A stretch of DNA of 64,000 nucleotides from Halorhabdus rudnickae. GTDB taxonomy: Archaea > Halobacteriota > Halobacteria > Halobacteriales > Haloarculaceae. Where the stretch lies: assembly GCF_900880625.1 (NCBI RefSeq), contig NZ_CAAHFB010000006.1:248001-312000 (forward strand). Direction: 5' to 3'. Below, one piece after another: positions 11,014 through 27,068 of the stretch. The notes beneath the pieces were generated by a model. The model was not told the DNA's origin, did not search any database, and worked only from the letters and a program-made list of their open reading frames with translations. Every line of letters starts with the position of its first letter. Within the stretch, counting starts at the first letter, position 1. The translations under genes and the position numbers were made by a program.

Positions 11014-12765
11014 TCACATCGATTCAGGAGCAGCGACGCCGAGCACATCGAGCGCGTTCGCGACGGTCGTCTGGGCGGCAGCGACCAGCGCCAATCTCGC
11101 TGCCCGTGTCTCGTCGTCGGCATCGAGGACGGGACACTCCCGGTAGAAGACGTTGAACGCCTCGGCAATATCGCGGGTGTACGTCGCGACTACGTGCGGA
11201 CGAAGTTCGTCGGCTGCCTGCTCGATCACACCCGGAAATCGTGCGATTTCCCGGAGCAAGTCGCGTTCCTCGTCGGTGGTGAGCGTCTCCGCGCTCACGC
11301 TCTCGGGCACCTCGTAGCCAGCTGCATTCCCCTCCTCGATGATCCCACAGCAACGAGCGTGGACGTACTGGACGTACGGCGCGGACTGTGCCTCGAAGTC
11401 CAGCGCGCGGTCCCACTCGAAGGTGATGCCTTTCGTCGGCTGTTTGGCCACCACGTCGTACCGGACGGCCCCGATCCCGACCTGATGGGCGATGCGCTCG
11501 ACGTCCGCAGAATCGAGATCGTCGCTCCGCTGGCGGCCCTCCAGGCGGTCCTCGACCTCTTGGCGTGCGCGATCGATGGCTTCGTCGAGCAGGTCGTCGA
11601 GGTCGACGCCCGTCCCCTCCCGAGTGCTCATGCCGCCCTCGGGCAGATTGACCCACGAGTAAAAGACCTGCTGGAGCCGGTCGGTGTCATGGCCAAGCAG
11701 CTCCAGCGTCGCCGAGAGCTGATCGGCCTGGAGTTTGTGGTCCTCACCCAGCACCGTCACTGCGCGGTCGTAGTGCTCGAACTTCCATTCGTGGTGAGCG
11801 AGATCCCGCGTGGTGTATAGGGACGTGCCGTCCGACCGGAGGAAGACGAGGTTCTTCTCGAAGTCCGGCAGGTCGAGTTGCCAGGCATCCTCCTCGAAGA
11901 CGGCCGCCTCAAGTTCCTGCAGGCGATCGACCACATCGTCGGTCGACCCGTCGCGCATGAACCGCGTCTCCTTGACGAACTCGTCGAACTCGGCTGGCAA
12001 TCGTCCGAGAGTGTCGCACATCCCGCCCAGAACGGTATCGACGACCTCGCTCACGCGCTCGTAGGTCTCTTCCTCACCCGCCTCCAGGCCCTGGAGGATC
12101 GCCTGGATCTCGTCTTCGGCGGCCTCGCGTTCAGGCTCGTCCGCCGCCTCGAGGTACTCGTTGGCCTTCCGGTAGTACCGGACCATTTTGTATTCCGGAG
12201 CGTCGCGTTCCGGTTCGGGGAGGGCCGCCTCTGTGAAGGTTTCGTAGGCCCAGGTGAAAACCGCGATCTGGCGGCCAGCGTCGTTGACGTAGTAGTGAAC
12301 GTCGACGTCGTTACCGGCGTAGGCAAGAACTCGGGCCAGCGCGTCGCCGACGATGGGGTTGCGCGCTCGGCCGACGTGGACCGGTCCGGTCGGGTTGGCG
12401 CTGGTGTGTTCGACGACGACCGACTCCCCTGTGGCTTCGAGCGTGCCGTAGTCGTCAGCCTGGGCGGCCGTCAGTGTCGCTTCGAAGTAACGGTCGCTCG
12501 GGAGGAAGTTGACGTACGGCCCCTGGGTCTCGACACTCCCCACGTACTCGTACTCGTCGGGATCGATCTCACTGGCGAGATTGGCAGCGATCTCCGGTGG
12601 CGGCGCGCCAGCCACATCGGCGAGTCGATAGGGAGCACTCGAGGCCAAGACTGCCGGGACGTCCTCCGGGGGGCGTTCGATCCCCAGATCGTCGGTCGGC
12701 AGATCGAGCGCCGCAAGCGCCCTCGAGAGCGCGGTCTCGACCTCGTCGCGGAGTGTCAGGAACAT
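11014..12765 (-). CDS. argS: arginyl-tRNA synthetase
   Basis: Class I synthetase charging tRNA-Arg. The 583-residue protein has an N-terminal Add1 domain, the HIGH-equivalent HVGR at 130-133, a KMSKS-region sequence GGMSTREG, and an all-helical DALR anticodon-binding domain ending in [10 protein letters not shown]. The start at 12765 ([10 protein letters not shown]) matches haloarchaeal ArgS; an alternative two codons upstream is less likely. The only downstream neighbour, minD, is convergent. Confidence 0.97.
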
Positions 12766-12799
12766 ACCCACGATATTCCACCGGCGACCATAGGGATTA

Positions 12800-12965
12800 C
12801 GAGATGGCGAGACGAACGCCCTCGATCTGTGGTGAGGCCTCCACCCGCCGCGGCGGGACGGTCGTAATGATCGGTCTCGCCGACGAGGCCGACTTCACCG
12901 AACCGCTGGAAAACGTCCAGGCCGCCTTCGAGCGTGCCCGCGATGACGACGACACCATATTCTCG
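12800..12965 (+). pseudogene. relic of a zinc-type alcohol dehydrogenase C-terminus
   Basis: The 306-base gap 12766-13071 holds, in one frame, a stretch with GGTVVMIGL (bases about 12850-12878) and then PLENVQAAFERARDDDDT (about 12900-12955). The first resembles the strand after the NAD-binding fold of zinc alcohol dehydrogenases; the second resembles their extreme C-terminus. The intervening part is missing and no start or full domain remains, so this looks like an internally deleted remnant. The rest of the gap, 12966-13071, is AT-rich and probably carries the promoter of the following HTH gene. Confidence 0.4.
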
Positions 12966-13071
12966 AAATGCTCTGCAATACAGCGCCATCCCTCCGTGAT
13001 GGCTCCTATTCACATTATTTTCATTAATTTCATTCCTAACACTCTTTACAGTGGCTGACATCGTCTCATCC

Positions 13072-13443
13072 ATGTCTATCGACCGGGAGACCTTCGAGAA
13101 CACACGCGAGGACGAACTCAAGGAACTATCCGTTCCGGACCAGGTCCTCGGATTCCTCGTGGCCCACGAGGACCGTGCGTTCGAGGCGAGCGAGATCGCC
13201 TCCCGGACTGGAATAGACGACGGTGCTGTCAGTACCGCACTGTCGCGCCTGAAGCATCGCGACCTCGTCGAACACAAGGCGACGTACTGGGCGGTGACAG
13301 ACGACGCTGATCGACTTGACGGGTACGGTGGCTACGAGCGAGCGACGGCCCTGTTCAACGAGCAGTTTGGTGCAGAAGAGAAAGAAGCCTGGCGCGAACA
13401 CGCGCCGAGGGAACCGCATCCGAACACGGAGAACGAACAGTGA
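13072..13443 (+). CDS. winged-helix (MarR-like) protein, possible antitoxin
   Basis: Protein of 123 residues from ATG 13072 (MSIDRETFEN). Residues about 15-75 form a winged-helix domain: EASEIASRTGIDDGAVSTAL reads as the helix-turn-helix, and LKHRDLVEHKATYWAVTDD as the wing. The C-terminus is charged. It overlaps the region of the following MazF-like toxin gene, a pairing common in haloarchaeal genomes, where the HTH protein is thought to act as antitoxin and autorepressor. An ATG 21 bases upstream is an alternative start. Confidence 0.72.
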   Translation: MSIDRETFENTREDELKELSVPDQVLGFLVAHEDRAFEASEIASRTGIDDGAVSTALSRLKHRDLVEHKATYWAVTDDADRLDGYGGYERATALFNEQFGAEEKEAWREHAPREPHPNTENEQ

Positions 13444-15178: not shown

Positions 15179-16174
15179 ATGTCGAATACGAACCCTGAAA
15201 CGCAAGATGACGTGACTAGTGAGTCGACGACACGCCGGGGCTTCCTGGAACTCGCCGGAGGGGCTTCGGCCGGAACACTCATTTCCAAACATGTCGGGGA
15301 AGTCGAAGCCGCCATCCGGCAAGTGACAGGGGGTGACGTTGAGGTGGTCTGGCTGCAGGGGCAGTCCTGCACCGGGTGTACCATCTCGATGCTTCAGGGT
15401 CAGCACCCGGCCCTGGAGGACGTACTCAGCGAGTTCCGGCTGGCGGTGACGTTTCATCCCACGCTCATGACCGAGACGGGCGAGAGCGCTCTCGACGCAA
15501 TGAGCAAAGAACCGGACGTGCTAATCATGGAGGGGGCAGTTCCCGCCGGCATGCCCCAGGCTGCTACCGTCGGTCACACTGATGATGGCCACAGTAAACC
15601 CATTCTCGACTGGGTCGAAAGATTGGCCCCACGGGCCGAGTACGTGGTTGCCGTCGGCAACTGCGCCGCCTTTGGCGGATGGCTAGCGGCTGGTCACGGG
15701 CGGAAAAGGTACGACAGGGGTGACAACGTCACGGGTGCCCACGGCCTTCAGTTTCAGGGCCGCAATCGGGATGGGGTCCTCGATCCGGCGTTTACTTCCG
15801 GGGCCGGATTGCCGGTCGTGAACCTCCAGGGGTGTCCGCCGAAACCCGACACCATTCTGTTGACGTTGACGATGCTTCTCAATGGGAACCCGCCGGAACT
15901 CGATGAGTACAACCGGCCGGTGACGTTCTACGAGTCGCCCAGCCAGGACGGCTGCTCGCGACGAAGACATTCCGATCGCGGTGGTTCGTCCGGTCGCCAC
16001 GGCCGCTCGGGACGTGGGCACTTCCACCGCCCCAGGTCGGCCGAGAAAGCCCACGATGAAGGTCCTGTACAGGAGGACGGCCGTGCCAATTCCGCCACCT
16101 ACCGCGACGGCAGAGAGCAGCCACCGAACGGCGGGACTAACGCCTGTCTGAACGGCGACGGCGAAACGAGGTGA
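15179..16174 (+). CDS. [NiFe] hydrogenase small subunit, Tat-exported, abnormal C-terminus
   Basis: Electron-transfer subunit of a [NiFe] hydrogenase. Residues 18-35 contain a twin-arginine signal (TTRRGFLELAGGASAGTL), so the enzyme should be exported folded. The four ligands of the proximal [4Fe-4S] cluster are present: Cys64 and Cys67 (SCTGC), Cys162 (NCAAFGG), Cys219 (GCPPKPD). Family-like sequence continues to about residue 262 (FYESPSQDGCSRR). There the distal Fe-S domain should start, but a His usually found in TIHDNC is Gln, and the remaining ~70 residues are low-complexity Arg/Gly/Ser-rich text without the expected Cys pattern. The frame stays open to 16174, 6 bases before the large subunit. 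Truncated by rearrangement or misassembly is my reading. Confidence 0.8.
   Translation: MSNTNPETQDDVTSESTTRRGFLELAGGASAGTLISKHVGEVEAAIRQVTGGDVEVVWLQGQSCTGCTISMLQGQHPALEDVLSEFRLAVTFHPTLMTETGESALDAMSKEPDVLIMEGAVPAGMPQAATVGHTDDGHSKPILDWVERLAPRAEYVVAVGNCAAFGGWLAAGHGRKRYDRGDNVTGAHGLQFQGRNRDGVLDPAFTSGAGLPVVNLQGCPPKPDTILLTLTMLLNGNPPELDEYNRPVTFYESPSQDGCSRRRHSDRGGSSGRHGRSGRGHFHRPRSAEKAHDEGPVQEDGRANSATYRDGREQPPNGGTNACLNGDGETR
15960..16172 (-). other. antisense, protein-like membrane segment in the hydrogenase spacer
   Basis: Read on the minus strand from about 16172, this stretch begins MRSPRFAVAVQTGVSP, followed by a strongly hydrophobic segment (WLLSAVAVGGGIGTAVLLY plus about ten more residues). The G/C wobble shifts from the small-subunit frame to the frame shared with this antisense reading at about 15960. 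A C-terminal membrane anchor is what small subunits of this class often carry, so an inverted fragment of the original gene end is possible. No start signal or stop marks it as a separate gene. Confidence 0.35.
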
Positions 16175-16180
16175 TCTCAT

Positions 16181-17800
16181 ATGCCAGAGATAACGATCGA
16201 TCCGACGACGCGTATCGAGGGACATCACGCCACGACGCTCGACGTGGAGGACGGTGTGGTACAGGACGCAAAGAGCCACATGGAGATGTTCCGGGGCGTC
16301 GAATTGGTCACGCTCGAACGCCCGCCGTCAGCTGTCCCGGATCTCACGGGGAAGGTCTGTGGTGTCTGTTTCACCTGTCACAGACTAACCTCTTCGCGGG
16401 CGGTCGAGGACGCCGCGATGGCGGCCGGCGTCTTCGACGGCGTCCCGCGGAACGCAGTACTGCTTCGGGACGCGATGGAGGGGATATTCTACCTGTGGAA
16501 TCACACGATCCACCTCTATGCGCTGGCCGGGCCGGACTACAGCGATGCCGTCGCAGAGACCGGCCTGACGCGCCTTGACCCCATAGAAGGTGACGGCTAT
16601 ATGGAGGCGATGGACCACCAGCGCACGCTGATGAAGGCCTTTACCGAGTTCGGCGGTCGCGTTCCGAATTCGCTGACGTACGTGCCTGGCGGGATGTCCG
16701 CCGATCCCGACGCCTCGACCATTCAGTCGATCAAAGATTACGTTGGAACGGTAAGCGAGTGGATCGGCCCGACCGATGCTGTCCCTGCGGTGATCGAGAA
16801 CGTCCGAAACGGGGAGTTCGATCCGTCGCTCGGTTCCGGACTCCACGATCTCGTCGGGATGTTGTACACTGCCGCCGAGGCAGGTGCCGCAGAGTACGGC
16901 GTGGGTCCCGGTCGGTACTACTCTAACGGCGTGTTCCGCCTCCCCGAAAGCGAGGAATTCCTCTTCGAACGCGGGATCTACCGCGATGGGTCGGTCGAAC
17001 CAAAGACCAAAGCGGAGATCCTCGACGGGATCACCGAGAGTACAGCCTACTCTTGGTACACCGCTGACTCGGCTGGCCATCCTGCAGAGGCCAAGCCTCC
17101 CGAGCCCGCTCCCGAGAAAGACGGCGCGTATTCGTGGGGAAAGGCACCGCGCTACGAGGGCCAGACCATGGAAGTCGGTCCCCTGGCACGGCTCGTGGTC
17201 TCGGATCTCGATCCCTTCGACTTGCGGGCGGAGTTGGGTGGGGGGAGCGCGGCGAGTAGCACGCTCAATCGCCTCATTGCCCGCACTCAGGAGATCCTGA
17301 TCGTTCGAGACAATGTCCTGAAACTGCTTGATGCGATCGAGCCTGGAAAGCCGTTCACGGCAGAGTGGGACGACGACTTTGACGGGAAGGGCGTCAGTCT
17401 GTTCGAAGCTTCTCGGGGCGCACTCTCACACTGGGCCGATATCCGAAACGGACAGATCAATCAGTACCAGATCATCACGCCAACGCTGTGGAACATGGGT
17501 CCCCGCGACGGCGACGATACGCCGGGTCCGCTCGAAACGGCGCTGGTCGGCATGGAGATTACAGATGTGGAGACGCCCCTCGACGTAATGCGGACGATCC
17601 GGTCGATGGATCCGTGCTTGGCCTGTTCGGTTCACCTCCAGACGCCGGCCGGCGAGTACGAGACGACTCTCGAACCAGCCACGCCAGGGGCCGTCGGCGA
17701 GGGGACGACCAACACGTGTGACAACGCCGATTCGGTGGTTGGGTCCGCGGGATCGAACACGACGAACGACCGTAACGACGAAATTACGGACGAACGATGA
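16181..17800 (+). CDS. [NiFe] hydrogenase large (catalytic) subunit
   Basis: Subunit holding the Ni-Fe active site that splits or forms H2. All four Ni ligands are present: Cys60 and Cys63 in KVCGVCFTCH (L1, preceded by RIEGH at 11-15) and Cys479 and Cys482 in DPCLACSVH (L2). At 539 residues the length fits group-1-like enzymes. Maturation cleavage normally falls after His485, leaving a C-terminal peptide of about 15 residues; here 54 residues follow, the last ~40 rich in Thr, Asn, Asp and Gly. The stop overlaps the protease start by 4 bases. Signal peptide is absent, so it would be exported with the small subunit. Confidence 0.93.
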   Translation: MPEITIDPTTRIEGHHATTLDVEDGVVQDAKSHMEMFRGVELVTLERPPSAVPDLTGKVCGVCFTCHRLTSSRAVEDAAMAAGVFDGVPRNAVLLRDAMEGIFYLWNHTIHLYALAGPDYSDAVAETGLTRLDPIEGDGYMEAMDHQRTLMKAFTEFGGRVPNSLTYVPGGMSADPDASTIQSIKDYVGTVSEWIGPTDAVPAVIENVRNGEFDPSLGSGLHDLVGMLYTAAEAGAAEYGVGPGRYYSNGVFRLPESEEFLFERGIYRDGSVEPKTKAEILDGITESTAYSWYTADSAGHPAEAKPPEPAPEKDGAYSWGKAPRYEGQTMEVGPLARLVVSDLDPFDLRAELGGGSAASSTLNRLIARTQEILIVRDNVLKLLDAIEPGKPFTAEWDDDFDGKGVSLFEASRGALSHWADIRNGQINQYQIITPTLWNMGPRDGDDTPGPLETALVGMEITDVETPLDVMRTIRSMDPCLACSVHLQTPAGEYETTLEPATPGAVGEGTTNTCDNADSVVGSAGSNTTNDRNDEITDER

Positions 17801-18309
17801 CGACGCTCGACGAGGAGACGGACGTGGCGGTCATCGGCGTCGGTAACGCGATCATGGGTGATGACGGCGTCGGCGAGCAGGTGATCCACGCACTACAGGA
17901 CCGCTCCGACGAACGGACAGAGGGAGTCCGGCTGTATGACGCTGGCACGACTGGCCTGCTCGCTCTGGAAGCGATGAGCGGCTGCGAGCGGGGGATCGTC
18001 GTTGACGCCATCAGCGCCGACGGCGAGCCCGGATCGATCTACCGCTACGAGTTCAAAGACGGGAGCTTCGACGGGGAATCCCCGCCGGTTTCGATGCACG
18101 ACATCTCTTTCGCTGAAGGGCTCTCAGCCGGCCGCAAAGCCTATGATTTGCCTGGGGAGATCCTGGTGATCGGTGTCGAACCCGCACGCATCGAGATGTC
18201 CGTCGAGTTGAGCAAGGCCGTTGCCAAAAAGGTGCCCGACATCGTCGACTTGATCCTCCGGGAACTGGATCGCGAGACGGGCACCGAAGGGACGGTAGCC
18301 CGGCTGTGA
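17797..18309 (+). CDS. hydrogenase maturation endopeptidase (HyaD/HybD/HupD family)
   Basis: Cytoplasmic protease that removes the C-terminal peptide of the large subunit after nickel insertion. The 170-residue protein starts the family pattern at GVGNAIMGDDGVG (14-26) and carries the three nickel-sensing residues known from E. coli HybD: Glu27, Asp70 (VVDAIS) and His101 (SMHDIS). The ATGA overlap with the large subunit indicates coupling. No hypA-F genes are in the window, so Ni and CN/CO ligand insertion must rely on genes elsewhere. Confidence 0.93.
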   Translation: MTTLDEETDVAVIGVGNAIMGDDGVGEQVIHALQDRSDERTEGVRLYDAGTTGLLALEAMSGCERGIVVDAISADGEPGSIYRYEFKDGSFDGESPPVSMHDISFAEGLSAGRKAYDLPGEILVIGVEPARIEMSVELSKAVAKKVPDIVDLILRELDRETGTEGTVARL

Positions 18310-24458: not shown

Positions 24459-24577
24459 TGCCGGACAGATGACCGGCCGCCTCAAAAAACGACCGAGTGG
24501 GTACTCCTTCCGTGTCGACGTATCCCAATAGCCACGCGACGACTGATCTGTTTTCTCACTATCTTGGAATGATTGCG

Positions 24578-24588
24578 AAATACTATAA
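24578..24588 (+). promoter_or_regulatory. TATA box candidate for the sulfur-transfer operon
   Basis: AAATACTATAA ends 19 bases before ATG 24608, giving a leaderless or nearly leaderless transcript. Confidence 0.45.
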
Positions 24589-24607
24589 CGTCCGGGAACC
24601 AATCCGA

Positions 24608-25024
24608 ATGTGTGAGACAGCTATGACAGGATACGCAGTGGTCCTCGCATCCGGAGAGTTGGAGCGTGTACAGGCAGTCAGCATGATCAGCTCGATCGCG
24701 GCGTCCTCGGACACGCCAGTACAGGTATTCGTAACGATGAACGGCCTTTCGGCCTTCGAGAAAGACCGCATCGAGAGCGGTGATTTCCAGGTGGCCGGGC
24801 CGGCCGGCGAAGCGATGCTCCAGGGCGGTGGCGACGAGGTCCCGCTGTTCTTCGAGCAACTCGAACGCGCAAAGGGAATCGGTCCGCTCGAGGTCTACGC
24901 CTGCGAGATGGTGATGGACATCATGGATACGGATCTCGACGATTACGTCGACGTCTTCGACGACACGCTTGGTGTCGCCGGCTTCCTGAAACGTGCATCG
25001 GACAAGCAGGTGCTGTTCGTCTGA
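24608..25024 (+). CDS. DsrE-like sulfur carrier family protein
   Basis: Protein of 138 residues (MCETAMTGYAVVLASGELER). The DsrE/DsrF-like fold is indicated by VQVFVTMNGL after the first helix and by LEVYACEMVMDIM, which holds the single conserved cysteine expected to carry persulfide. The ATG at 24623 is an alternative start; the promoter spacing favours 24608. It heads an operon with TusA-like and sulfide:quinone oxidoreductase-like genes, pointing to sulfide or sulfane-sulfur handling. Confidence 0.82.
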   Translation: MCETAMTGYAVVLASGELERVQAVSMISSIAASSDTPVQVFVTMNGLSAFEKDRIESGDFQVAGPAGEAMLQGGGDEVPLFFEQLERAKGIGPLEVYACEMVMDIMDTDLDDYVDVFDDTLGVAGFLKRASDKQVLFV

Positions 25025-25034
25025 GGTGACCACC

Positions 25035-25274
25035 ATGAGTGACACACCAACCCCAGATATCGAACTCGACTCGCGCGGCGCAACCTGTCCCGGCCCGCTG
25101 ATGGACCTCATCGGGAAGGTCAAAGAGGTCGAAGCCGGGACCGTCATCGAACTGCTGACGAGCGACGAGGGTTCGAAGAACGACGTGCCCGAGTGGCTCG
25201 AAGAGGCAGGGCACGAACTGGTAACGATCGAAGAACACGACGACCACTGGGCCATCTACGTCGAGACCACATGA
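25035..25274 (+). CDS. tusA: TusA-family sulfurtransferase
   Basis: Small sulfur carrier of 79 residues. The defining CPGP motif is at 18-21 (Cys18 carries the persulfide), followed by the typical two-layer alpha/beta order and an aromatic C-terminal strand (HHWAIYVETT-like). It starts 10 bases after dsrE and its stop overlaps the next start (ATGA). It could pass sulfur to tRNA thiolation or cofactor synthesis, or take it from sulfide oxidation. Confidence 0.9.
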   Translation: MSDTPTPDIELDSRGATCPGPLMDLIGKVKEVEAGTVIELLTSDEGSKNDVPEWLEEAGHELVTIEEHDDHWAIYVETT

Positions 25275-26410
25275 CCGAAGAGATCGTCGTCGTCGGTGGC
25301 GGCACCGGCGGCACTGTCCTGGCGAACCGACTCGCCGAGCGACTCGGGTCGGCGATCGACGCCGGCGACGCCCGCGTGACCGTGATCAACGACGGCGAGG
25401 ACCAGCAGTACAAACCCGCCTACCTCTACGTCCCCTTCGGCAAGAAGACCGTCGAGGAGGCACGGCGGCCCCTGTCGGATCTGCTGGACCGCCGGGTCGA
25501 TCTTCGCGTCGATCGCGTGACGGGGATCGACACCGACGGGAAGTCCGTCGCGCTCGAAGACGGCGGCGAACTCGGCTACGATCACCTCGTGATGGCGACG
25601 GGCGCGAACCTCGCCCCAGAGGAAGTCCCAGGTCTCGCTGAAGGGGGCCACCACTTCTACGGACCTGCGGGCGCCGAGGCTCTCCGTGACGAACTGGCCG
25701 ACTTCGAGGAGGGCCATCTCGTGCTATCGGTCATCGGCGTGCCCCACATGTGTCCGGCGGCCCCCCTCGAGTTCGTCTTCATGGCCGACGACTGGCTGCG
25801 CCGTCGCGGACTCCGCGAGGACGTCGAAATCACCTACACGTACCCGATCCAGCGCGCCCACGGCCTGCAGTCGGTCGCCGACTGGGCGACGCCGAAACTC
25901 GCGGAACGGGACATCAACGTCGAGACGTTCTTCAACGCCGAGACGGTCGATCCCGACGAGAGAGTCCTGGAGACGATGGAGGGCAACGAACTCGAGTACG
26001 ATCTGCTCGTGGCGATCCCGCCCCACACTGCCAGCGAGCTGGTCAGTGAATCCGGACTGGGCGACACCTGGATCGACGTCGACCGGGCGACACTGGAAGC
26101 TGAACACGCCGACGATGTCTACGCGATCGGCGACGTGGCCGACGTCCCGACGAGCAAGGCCGGCAGCGTCGCCCACTACGAGGCGGGCGTCGTCGCCGAC
26201 CGGATCGCCAGCCGCGTTCGTGGGGAAACCCCGACATCCGCATACGAAGGCAAGACGGTCTGTTTCATCGAGACCGGCATGGACGAGGCGACGTTCGTCG
26301 AGTTCGCGTACGGTGACGAACCGACCATGCGCGAACCCTCCAAACCCGTCCACTGGGCGAAACTGGGCTACAACGAGTCCTACTGGTTGACCGCCAGAGG
26401 GCTCCTGTGA
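25271..26410 (+). CDS. sulfide:quinone oxidoreductase-like flavoprotein
   Basis: FAD-dependent pyridine-nucleotide-disulfide family protein of 379 residues. FAD motifs: VVVGGGTGGTVLANRL (5-20), ATGANLAPE (about 112) and YAIGDVAD (about 287). The sequence VPHMCPAAPLE around Cys160 and CFIETG near residue 335 match two of the redox cysteines of sulfide:quinone oxidoreductases; the third usual cysteine near position 128 is not seen. A role in oxidising sulfide or handling persulfide at the membrane quinone pool is likely given dsrE and tusA upstream. Substrate is inferred. Confidence 0.85.
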   Translation: MTEEIVVVGGGTGGTVLANRLAERLGSAIDAGDARVTVINDGEDQQYKPAYLYVPFGKKTVEEARRPLSDLLDRRVDLRVDRVTGIDTDGKSVALEDGGELGYDHLVMATGANLAPEEVPGLAEGGHHFYGPAGAEALRDELADFEEGHLVLSVIGVPHMCPAAPLEFVFMADDWLRRRGLREDVEITYTYPIQRAHGLQSVADWATPKLAERDINVETFFNAETVDPDERVLETMEGNELEYDLLVAIPPHTASELVSESGLGDTWIDVDRATLEAEHADDVYAIGDVADVPTSKAGSVAHYEAGVVADRIASRVRGETPTSAYEGKTVCFIETGMDEATFVEFAYGDEPTMREPSKPVHWAKLGYNESYWLTARGLL

Positions 26411-26420
26411 GGTGGTTCGC

Positions 26421-27068
26421 GTGAGCGACTCCGAAACCGCGGCGATGGACGACGAGACCGACGCGCCGGCCGACCTCGAATCGCTGGTCGCGGACAACCC
26501 CGAGGAGGTCGCCCGTCTGCTCGAACGCCTCGGGCTGGTCAACGATCTGCTGGACGCCGCCGACGTCGCCACCTCGGCGATGGACGACGAGATGATCCAG
26601 TCGCTGGCCGGAACGGGAACGAATCTCGGGCTGGCCGCCAACGAAATTGCCACCGACGAGACCGTTCAGTTGGGCGAAGCCGTCGGGCAAAACGCCGACG
26701 ACCTCGCCGACGGTGTCGAGAAAGTCGCCGAGCTGCAGCGGACGGGCACGCTCGACGATCTACTCGACCTGGCCGAACTCGCCTCGCTGGCGAGCGCTGC
26801 GATGGACGACGAGATGGTCATGTCGCTTGCTTCGACCGGAACGCGACTTGGCGAGGTCGCCGACACCGCAGCGGACGACGACATCGCGCGCGGACTGGAA
26901 GACGCACTGGCGGCGCTGGGCGAGGCGACCAGCGAGGAACCCGAAGAAGTCGGCGCGATCGGGTTGCTGAAGGCCACTCGAGACCCCGACGTCAAGGCCG
27001 GGTTGGGCGTCGTGATCGCACTGGCCCGGGCGCTCGGCCAGCAGACCCACAACCCGTCCGAGGCCTAA
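26421..27068 (+). CDS. DUF1641-type helical protein
   Basis: Acidic, all-helical protein of about 215 residues made of repeated segments: SAMDDEMIQSLAGTGTNLG and SAAMDDEMVMSLASTGTRLG are clear internal duplicates about 80 residues apart. The pattern fits DUF1641, often found next to sulfide:quinone oxidoreductases or formate dehydrogenase genes. GTG 26421 is chosen because GAGGTG lies at a ribosome-binding distance before it; GTG 26412 is possible. Last gene of the operon; function unknown, possibly membrane recruitment of the oxidoreductase. Confidence 0.75.
   Translation: MSDSETAAMDDETDAPADLESLVADNPEEVARLLERLGLVNDLLDAADVATSAMDDEMIQSLAGTGTNLGLAANEIATDETVQLGEAVGQNADDLADGVEKVAELQRTGTLDDLLDLAELASLASAAMDDEMVMSLASTGTRLGEVADTAADDDIARGLEDALAALGEATSEEPEEVGAIGLLKATRDPDVKAGLGVVIALARALGQQTHNPSEA

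Follow-up and report, generated by a model that had tools for sequence, protein, structure and literature searches.

The [NiFe] hydrogenase operon in the window (the whole 64,000-nucleotide stretch of haloarchaeal DNA that was analysed) is, judged from its sequence, a reduced variant derived from the haloarchaeal group-1 hydrogenase HydABC, without two of the features that define that uptake enzyme. The path by which electrons would leave the enzyme appears to have been dismantled, with most of the putative medial- and distal-cluster ligands, the membrane helix and the cytochrome HydC lost. HydABC, a group-1 [NiFe] uptake hydrogenase, is known from Halodesulfurarchaeum formicicum and natronoarchaeal AArc strains, and H2-dependent sulfur respiration has been shown in cultures with this enzyme (PMC5437934, PMC6176080). 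The haloarchaeal group-1 hydrogenase as such was thus already published in 2017 and 2018, and the dismantled electron exit is the new part. All group-1 [NiFe] hydrogenases known to us use three Fe-S clusters to carry electrons to the protein surface.

The genome containing the window (G000) was compared with the single-contig genome of another species of the same genus (G089). The features of the operon are as follows (window coordinates and strand).

15179..16174 (+), hydA', small-subunit gene, 331 aa, with a degenerate C-terminal domain (open frame; Oxidored_q6, 3e-27 over residues 64-232)
15227..15290 (+), Tat (twin-arginine) signal region TTRRGFLELAGGASAGTLI (sequence; aligns with the RRNFL signals of intact homologues)
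15332..15931 (+), proximal-cluster domain of HydA' with C64, C67, C162 and C219 intact (alignment; dN/dS 0.164 against G089; pLDDT mostly 60-90)
15932..16171 (+), decayed remnant of the medial/distal Fe-S domain of HydA' (profile score; frame search; pLDDT; genome-wide absence of PF14720)
16181..17800 (+), hydB, [NiFe] large subunit, 539 aa (PF00374, 1e-82; 87% identity to G089; dN/dS 0.123)
16667..16672 (+), Asn163-Ser164 of HydB, replacing an invariant His-Pro beside the proximal cluster (alignment with 34 intact homologues)
17636..17797 (+), C-terminal extension of HydB past the cleavage motif DPCLACSVH (alignment; longer than in homologues)
17797..18309 (+), hydD, maturation protease, 170 aa (TIGR00072, 2.7e-36; PF01750, 5.8e-22; dN/dS 0.24)

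The initial annotation had described a small subunit with a twin-arginine signal and four proximal-cluster cysteines, a large subunit with both CxxC nickel motifs and a complete maturation protease, and all of these were found. The twin arginine of HydA' lies in TTRRGFLELAGG, aligned with the RRNFL of its homologues, and the four proximal cysteines are retained; NCBIfam hydrogenase small-subunit models matched the protein in addition to Oxidored_q6. The nickel ligands of HydB are intact (C60/C63 and C479/C482, with H485 in the DPCxxCxxH end), and HydD was also matched by the HycI/hydrog_prot models. None of the three frames in the window contains an internal stop. Past the cleavage motif, the C-terminal peptide of HydB has roughly double the usual length and is almost unconstrained (dN/dS about 0.87). 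An opposite-strand gene at 15686-16279, which encodes a helix-like stretch, was rejected as a mirror of coding DNA, since it had no Pfam or NCBIfam match and its frame contains stops in G089.

The decay of HydA' residues 253-331, and with it the loss of the electron exit, had been overlooked in the initial annotation. In haloarchaeal homologues, the small subunit past residue 251 consists of the distal- and medial-cluster domain followed by a membrane helix. Six of the eight putative medial/distal ligands are lost in HydA' (H256Q, C296P, C302R, C309R and the last two cysteines, which are missing) and only C259 and C323 remain in the alignment, the ligands being assigned by alignment to solved [NiFeSe] small subunits and not from a structure of HydA' itself. 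The membrane helix is missing from the C-terminus, and the tail is filled with basic, arginine-rich sequence of low complexity (pI 9.5), whereas the rest of the protein is acidic. A profile of the intact domain nevertheless scored 15.6 bits on the tail, against at most 9.1 bits in 2000 shuffles (first 12 tail residues removed), and apart from the annotated frame no frame matched this profile in either G000 or G089. In a structure model of HydA' residues 253-331 have a pLDDT below 50, whereas the proximal domain is folded and was matched by Foldseek to PDB structures of hydrogenase small subunits. A separate gene supplying the Fe-S domain was ruled out, because PF14720 was not found anywhere in the G000 or G089 genome even at E ≤ 1. 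By alignment, profile and model, residues 253-331 do not constitute a working Fe-S domain.

The remaining parts of the exit path are affected as well. HydC is a cytochrome b561-family protein, encoded between HydB and HydD in most of the intact relatives examined. The initial annotation had correctly noted that neither hyp genes nor a cytochrome b partner lie near the operon, and had proposed a genome-wide search for both; for the cytochrome this search was negative, with no HydC homologue (E ≤ 0.001) and no PF01292 (cytochrome b561) match over the cut-off in either G000 or G089. In the large subunit, four otherwise invariant positions are altered, including a histidine near the proximal cluster. 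This position corresponds to His229 of E. coli Hyd-1 (mapped via the offset of the Hyd-1 match, query 139 to chain 205), a residue that has been reported to be invariant throughout the [NiFe] hydrogenases and that lies about 3.3-4.2 Å from the proximal cluster in enterobacterial enzymes (PMC3940037). The histidine and the proline that follows it are invariant in 34/34 intact haloarchaeal sequences, whereas Asn163 and Ser164 are common to the window and G089, as are two further changes, D51A and G406S.

The same three-gene cassette is present in G089, where HydB is 87% identical and the HydA orthologue shares 81% identity over residues 1-254. Homology between the two genomes is limited to the three operon genes, the flanking genes being different. 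In G089 a related ABC-2 permease/ATPase gene pair occurs in one copy on each side of the cassette (L054:6262-8101 and 11479-13259), and these copies might have mediated its movement. The operon was found in two of the seven genomes of the genus and is absent from the other five. A group-1-type hydrogenase occurs in 28 of 392 genomes of the class, and the Fe-S domain is kept in all other haloarchaeal small subunits that were scored, including copies recovered by a search of 146 family genomes. A search of genome contigs with an alignment as query recovered matches; the window protein as a lone query gave none.

In a HydB tree of 39 rows, G000 and G089 formed one clade (support 100/100) nested within the haloarchaeal HydB clade and sister to an intact clade of 16 rows, the joint clade being supported at 100/99, and their branches were no longer than those of intact relatives. 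Since the two are nested among intact haloarchaeal enzymes, loss of the Fe-S domain is derived. That the loss preceded the split of the two species is the parsimonious, though not proven, interpretation. No remnant of the Fe-S domain was detected by profile search in the G089 tail, and homology between the two tails was not demonstrable, so that separate and more recent losses in G000 and G089 could have occurred. A shared “RHGRSGR” insertion was considered as proof of a single common loss and dropped, because 580 of 5000 shuffles reached its score. An older common cause is favoured by the lack of HydC in both genomes and by the HydB changes that they have in common. Where the domain has been lost from the small subunit of G089, there is an in-frame 51-bp tandem repeat (L054:9025-9218; 3.8 copies, 93% match). 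In a related group of haloarchaeal HydA/HydB proteins (L029-L034, L036, L037, L083, L085, L086, L089, L126) the Fe-S domain is retained, but the twin-arginine pair is missing, the motif reading RPDFL, QPDFL, YDFL or similar; these are possibly cytoplasmic group-1 derivatives, and the L066 copy of this group has no HydC or HydD adjoining it.

The genome search that was negative for the cytochrome did recover the maturation genes: HypD, HypE, HypB and two small hyp genes are encoded in one cluster away from the operon, and HypF is also encoded elsewhere. Inactivity of all hydrogenases through missing maturation genes was ruled out, because each of the seven genomes of the genus encodes HypD and HypF. 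The same seven genomes each encode three further [NiFe]-type large subunits, namely Hox-like, group-3b-like and group-4-like; in G000 these are located at C1:1864-1866k (L050), C1:1517-1519k (L051) and C4:188k (L052), with intact CxxC motifs. The earlier statement that hydrogenases are uncommon in Halobacteria is fair for the group-1 type, at 28/392 genomes, but this genus is unusually rich in hydrogenases among haloarchaea.

Selection on the remaining genes was estimated from the G000-G089 pair, at dS of about 0.4-0.6. The dN/dS values of 0.164 for the HydA N-domain and 0.123 for HydB compare with 0.07 for HypD, 0.12 for another hyp gene, 0.08-0.10 for Hox-like subunits and 0.22-0.27 for the 3b-like enzyme in the same two genomes, and with 0.03-0.12 for intact hydrogenase pairs at similar dS. 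Constraint on HydB and the HydA N-domain is therefore somewhat relaxed, about 1.5 to 3 times relative to intact pairs, but not lost. The marks of a pseudogene, broken frames and dN/dS near 1, were not seen: the three genes are without stops or frameshifts in both species, at dN/dS of 0.12-0.24. These data indicate that the operon is not a plain pseudogene and that its coding parts outside the decayed tail are under purifying selection in two species.

Considering all of these observations, we tentatively favour the reading that the operon is a secondarily reduced descendant of HydABC, encoding an exported, unanchored, single-cluster hydrogenase core with a changed role. Hyp proteins encoded elsewhere would provide HydB with its NiFe(CN)2CO centre, HydD would trim HydB, and HydB would pair with HydA' for export via Tat as an unanchored dimer. 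The NiFe site may still split (or form) H2; electrons would reach the proximal cluster at most, where a docking or diffusible partner would take them up or deliver them directly. Alternatively, the role may be one that needs H2 binding and no long electron relay, such as sensing. The stronger form of this proposal, that evolution has turned a group-1 [NiFe] hydrogenase into an H2 receptor or a functional exported enzyme with one cluster, which dispenses with the long Fe-S relay and the membrane partner and from whose proximal cluster electrons or a signal leave, is possible but doubtful; we know of no described group-1 precedent, and a literature search turned up none. Several findings also count against a changed-role core, namely the raised dN/dS, the four altered HydB positions, the operon's absence from five of the seven species and the lack of demonstrable homology between the two tails. 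With differing flanks, no new electron partner common to both genomes is encoded beside the operon. The strongest rival is that the locus is a decaying relic, which became useless after loss of HydC and in which the Fe-S domain eroded first, with HydB and the HydA N-domain slowly following. We regard this as a real possibility, although short of a probable one: the loss of six of eight ligands, a tail made of low-complexity basic sequence or, in G089, of a tandem repeat, His163Asn, Pro164Ser and Gly406Ser at otherwise invariant HydB positions, and the five species without the operon are all as a relic would have them, whereas frames free of stops and frameshifts in three genes of two species, dN/dS of 0.12-0.16 and not about 1 over the dS that separates them, complete retention of the proximal and nickel ligands, and tree branches that do not exceed those of intact relatives in length speak against it.

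The other explanations fared less well. That a hydrogenase has here given rise to a signalling protein without a role in respiration, for instance an H2 sensor, seems improbable; H2 binding and storage of one electron would suffice for such a protein, which would need neither wire nor anchor, and the other hydrogenases in the genome could be its regulated targets, but none of the neighbours scanned was identified as a kinase, receiver or PAS gene, and the known regulatory hydrogenases are cytoplasmic enzymes that retain three clusters (PMC5665086), whereas HydA' has a Tat signal. The initial annotation had inferred an exported uptake-type enzyme coupled to the quinone pool. Its first half stands in so far as HydA' and HydB are group-1-like, carry a Tat signal and have kept the active-site signature intact, and Halodesulfurarchaeum and natronoarchaea do have close homologues of the quinone-linked uptake kind (PMC5437934, PMC6176080). 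Quinone-linked H2 uptake is nevertheless unlikely, because the medial/distal domain is decayed, the helix is gone, HydC is absent genome-wide and the invariant His is replaced by Asn; as the sequence already contradicts it, an intact enzyme of this type has only a very slight probability. Even less credible is a sequencing or assembly error whose frameshift hides an intact small subunit. The basic, arginine-rich tail does resemble many wrong-frame translations of haloarchaeal DNA, but the Fe-S profile matched no frame other than the annotated one in either genome, and the independent single-contig genome of G089 shows the same loss, by which this explanation was ruled out.

Comparison with known systems places the proposed reduced core beside several better-described enzymes. 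It resembles haloarchaeal HydABC in its HydB sequence (mostly 55-68% identical), the order HydA-HydB-...-HydD, a Tat-type small subunit and the same NiFe and proximal ligands, but differs in that the window and G089 operons are without HydC, medial and distal clusters and membrane helix, have unlinked hyp genes and carry Asn in place of His229. Like FohAB, the MIC hydrogenase of Methanococcus maripaludis, it would be a NiFe heterodimer that is secreted through Tat, has a maturation protease of its own and a hydrophilic small-subunit tail, and is not paired with a membrane cytochrome. FohB, however, keeps all three Fe-S clusters, and its island carries tatA/tatC; this enzyme has been reported to fall outside the four known groups (PMC6181927, PMC12667266). 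HydA' does not keep all three, with two of eight medial/distal ligands left, and no Tat gene was present among the operon neighbours scanned. The best PDB match of HydA' was the actinobacterial Huc (7utd; 37% identity in the Foldseek alignment), which has the same proximal-domain fold but, unlike HydA', keeps the C-terminal Fe-S domain, as aligned with intact haloarchaeal HydA. Single-cluster small subunits are usual in group 3d (HoxY) and group 4 (Ech/Mbh, and Nqo6 of complex I), where they are cytoplasmic and belong to larger complexes that supply further clusters. HydA' is likewise reduced to a proximal-cluster domain, but its reduction appears secondary within group 1, a different phylogenetic group, and its best NCBIfam and PDB matches were group-1/2 small subunits and not members of the HoxY/Ech family.

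If the reduced core works, it would reveal the capabilities of a hydrogenase core that has no wire and would provide a natural test of the role of the invariant histidine beside the proximal cluster; if it is a relic, it would reveal which parts of such an enzyme decay first and which later. In practice it is a warning for annotation, as relying on a large subunit, a Tat signal and nickel motifs alone would here lead to a false prediction of H2 respiration. Elsewhere in the window, at 24497-27068, genes for a DsrE-like protein, TusA, a sulfide-quinone-reductase-like flavoprotein and a DUF1641 protein are clustered, which suggests sulfur metabolism.
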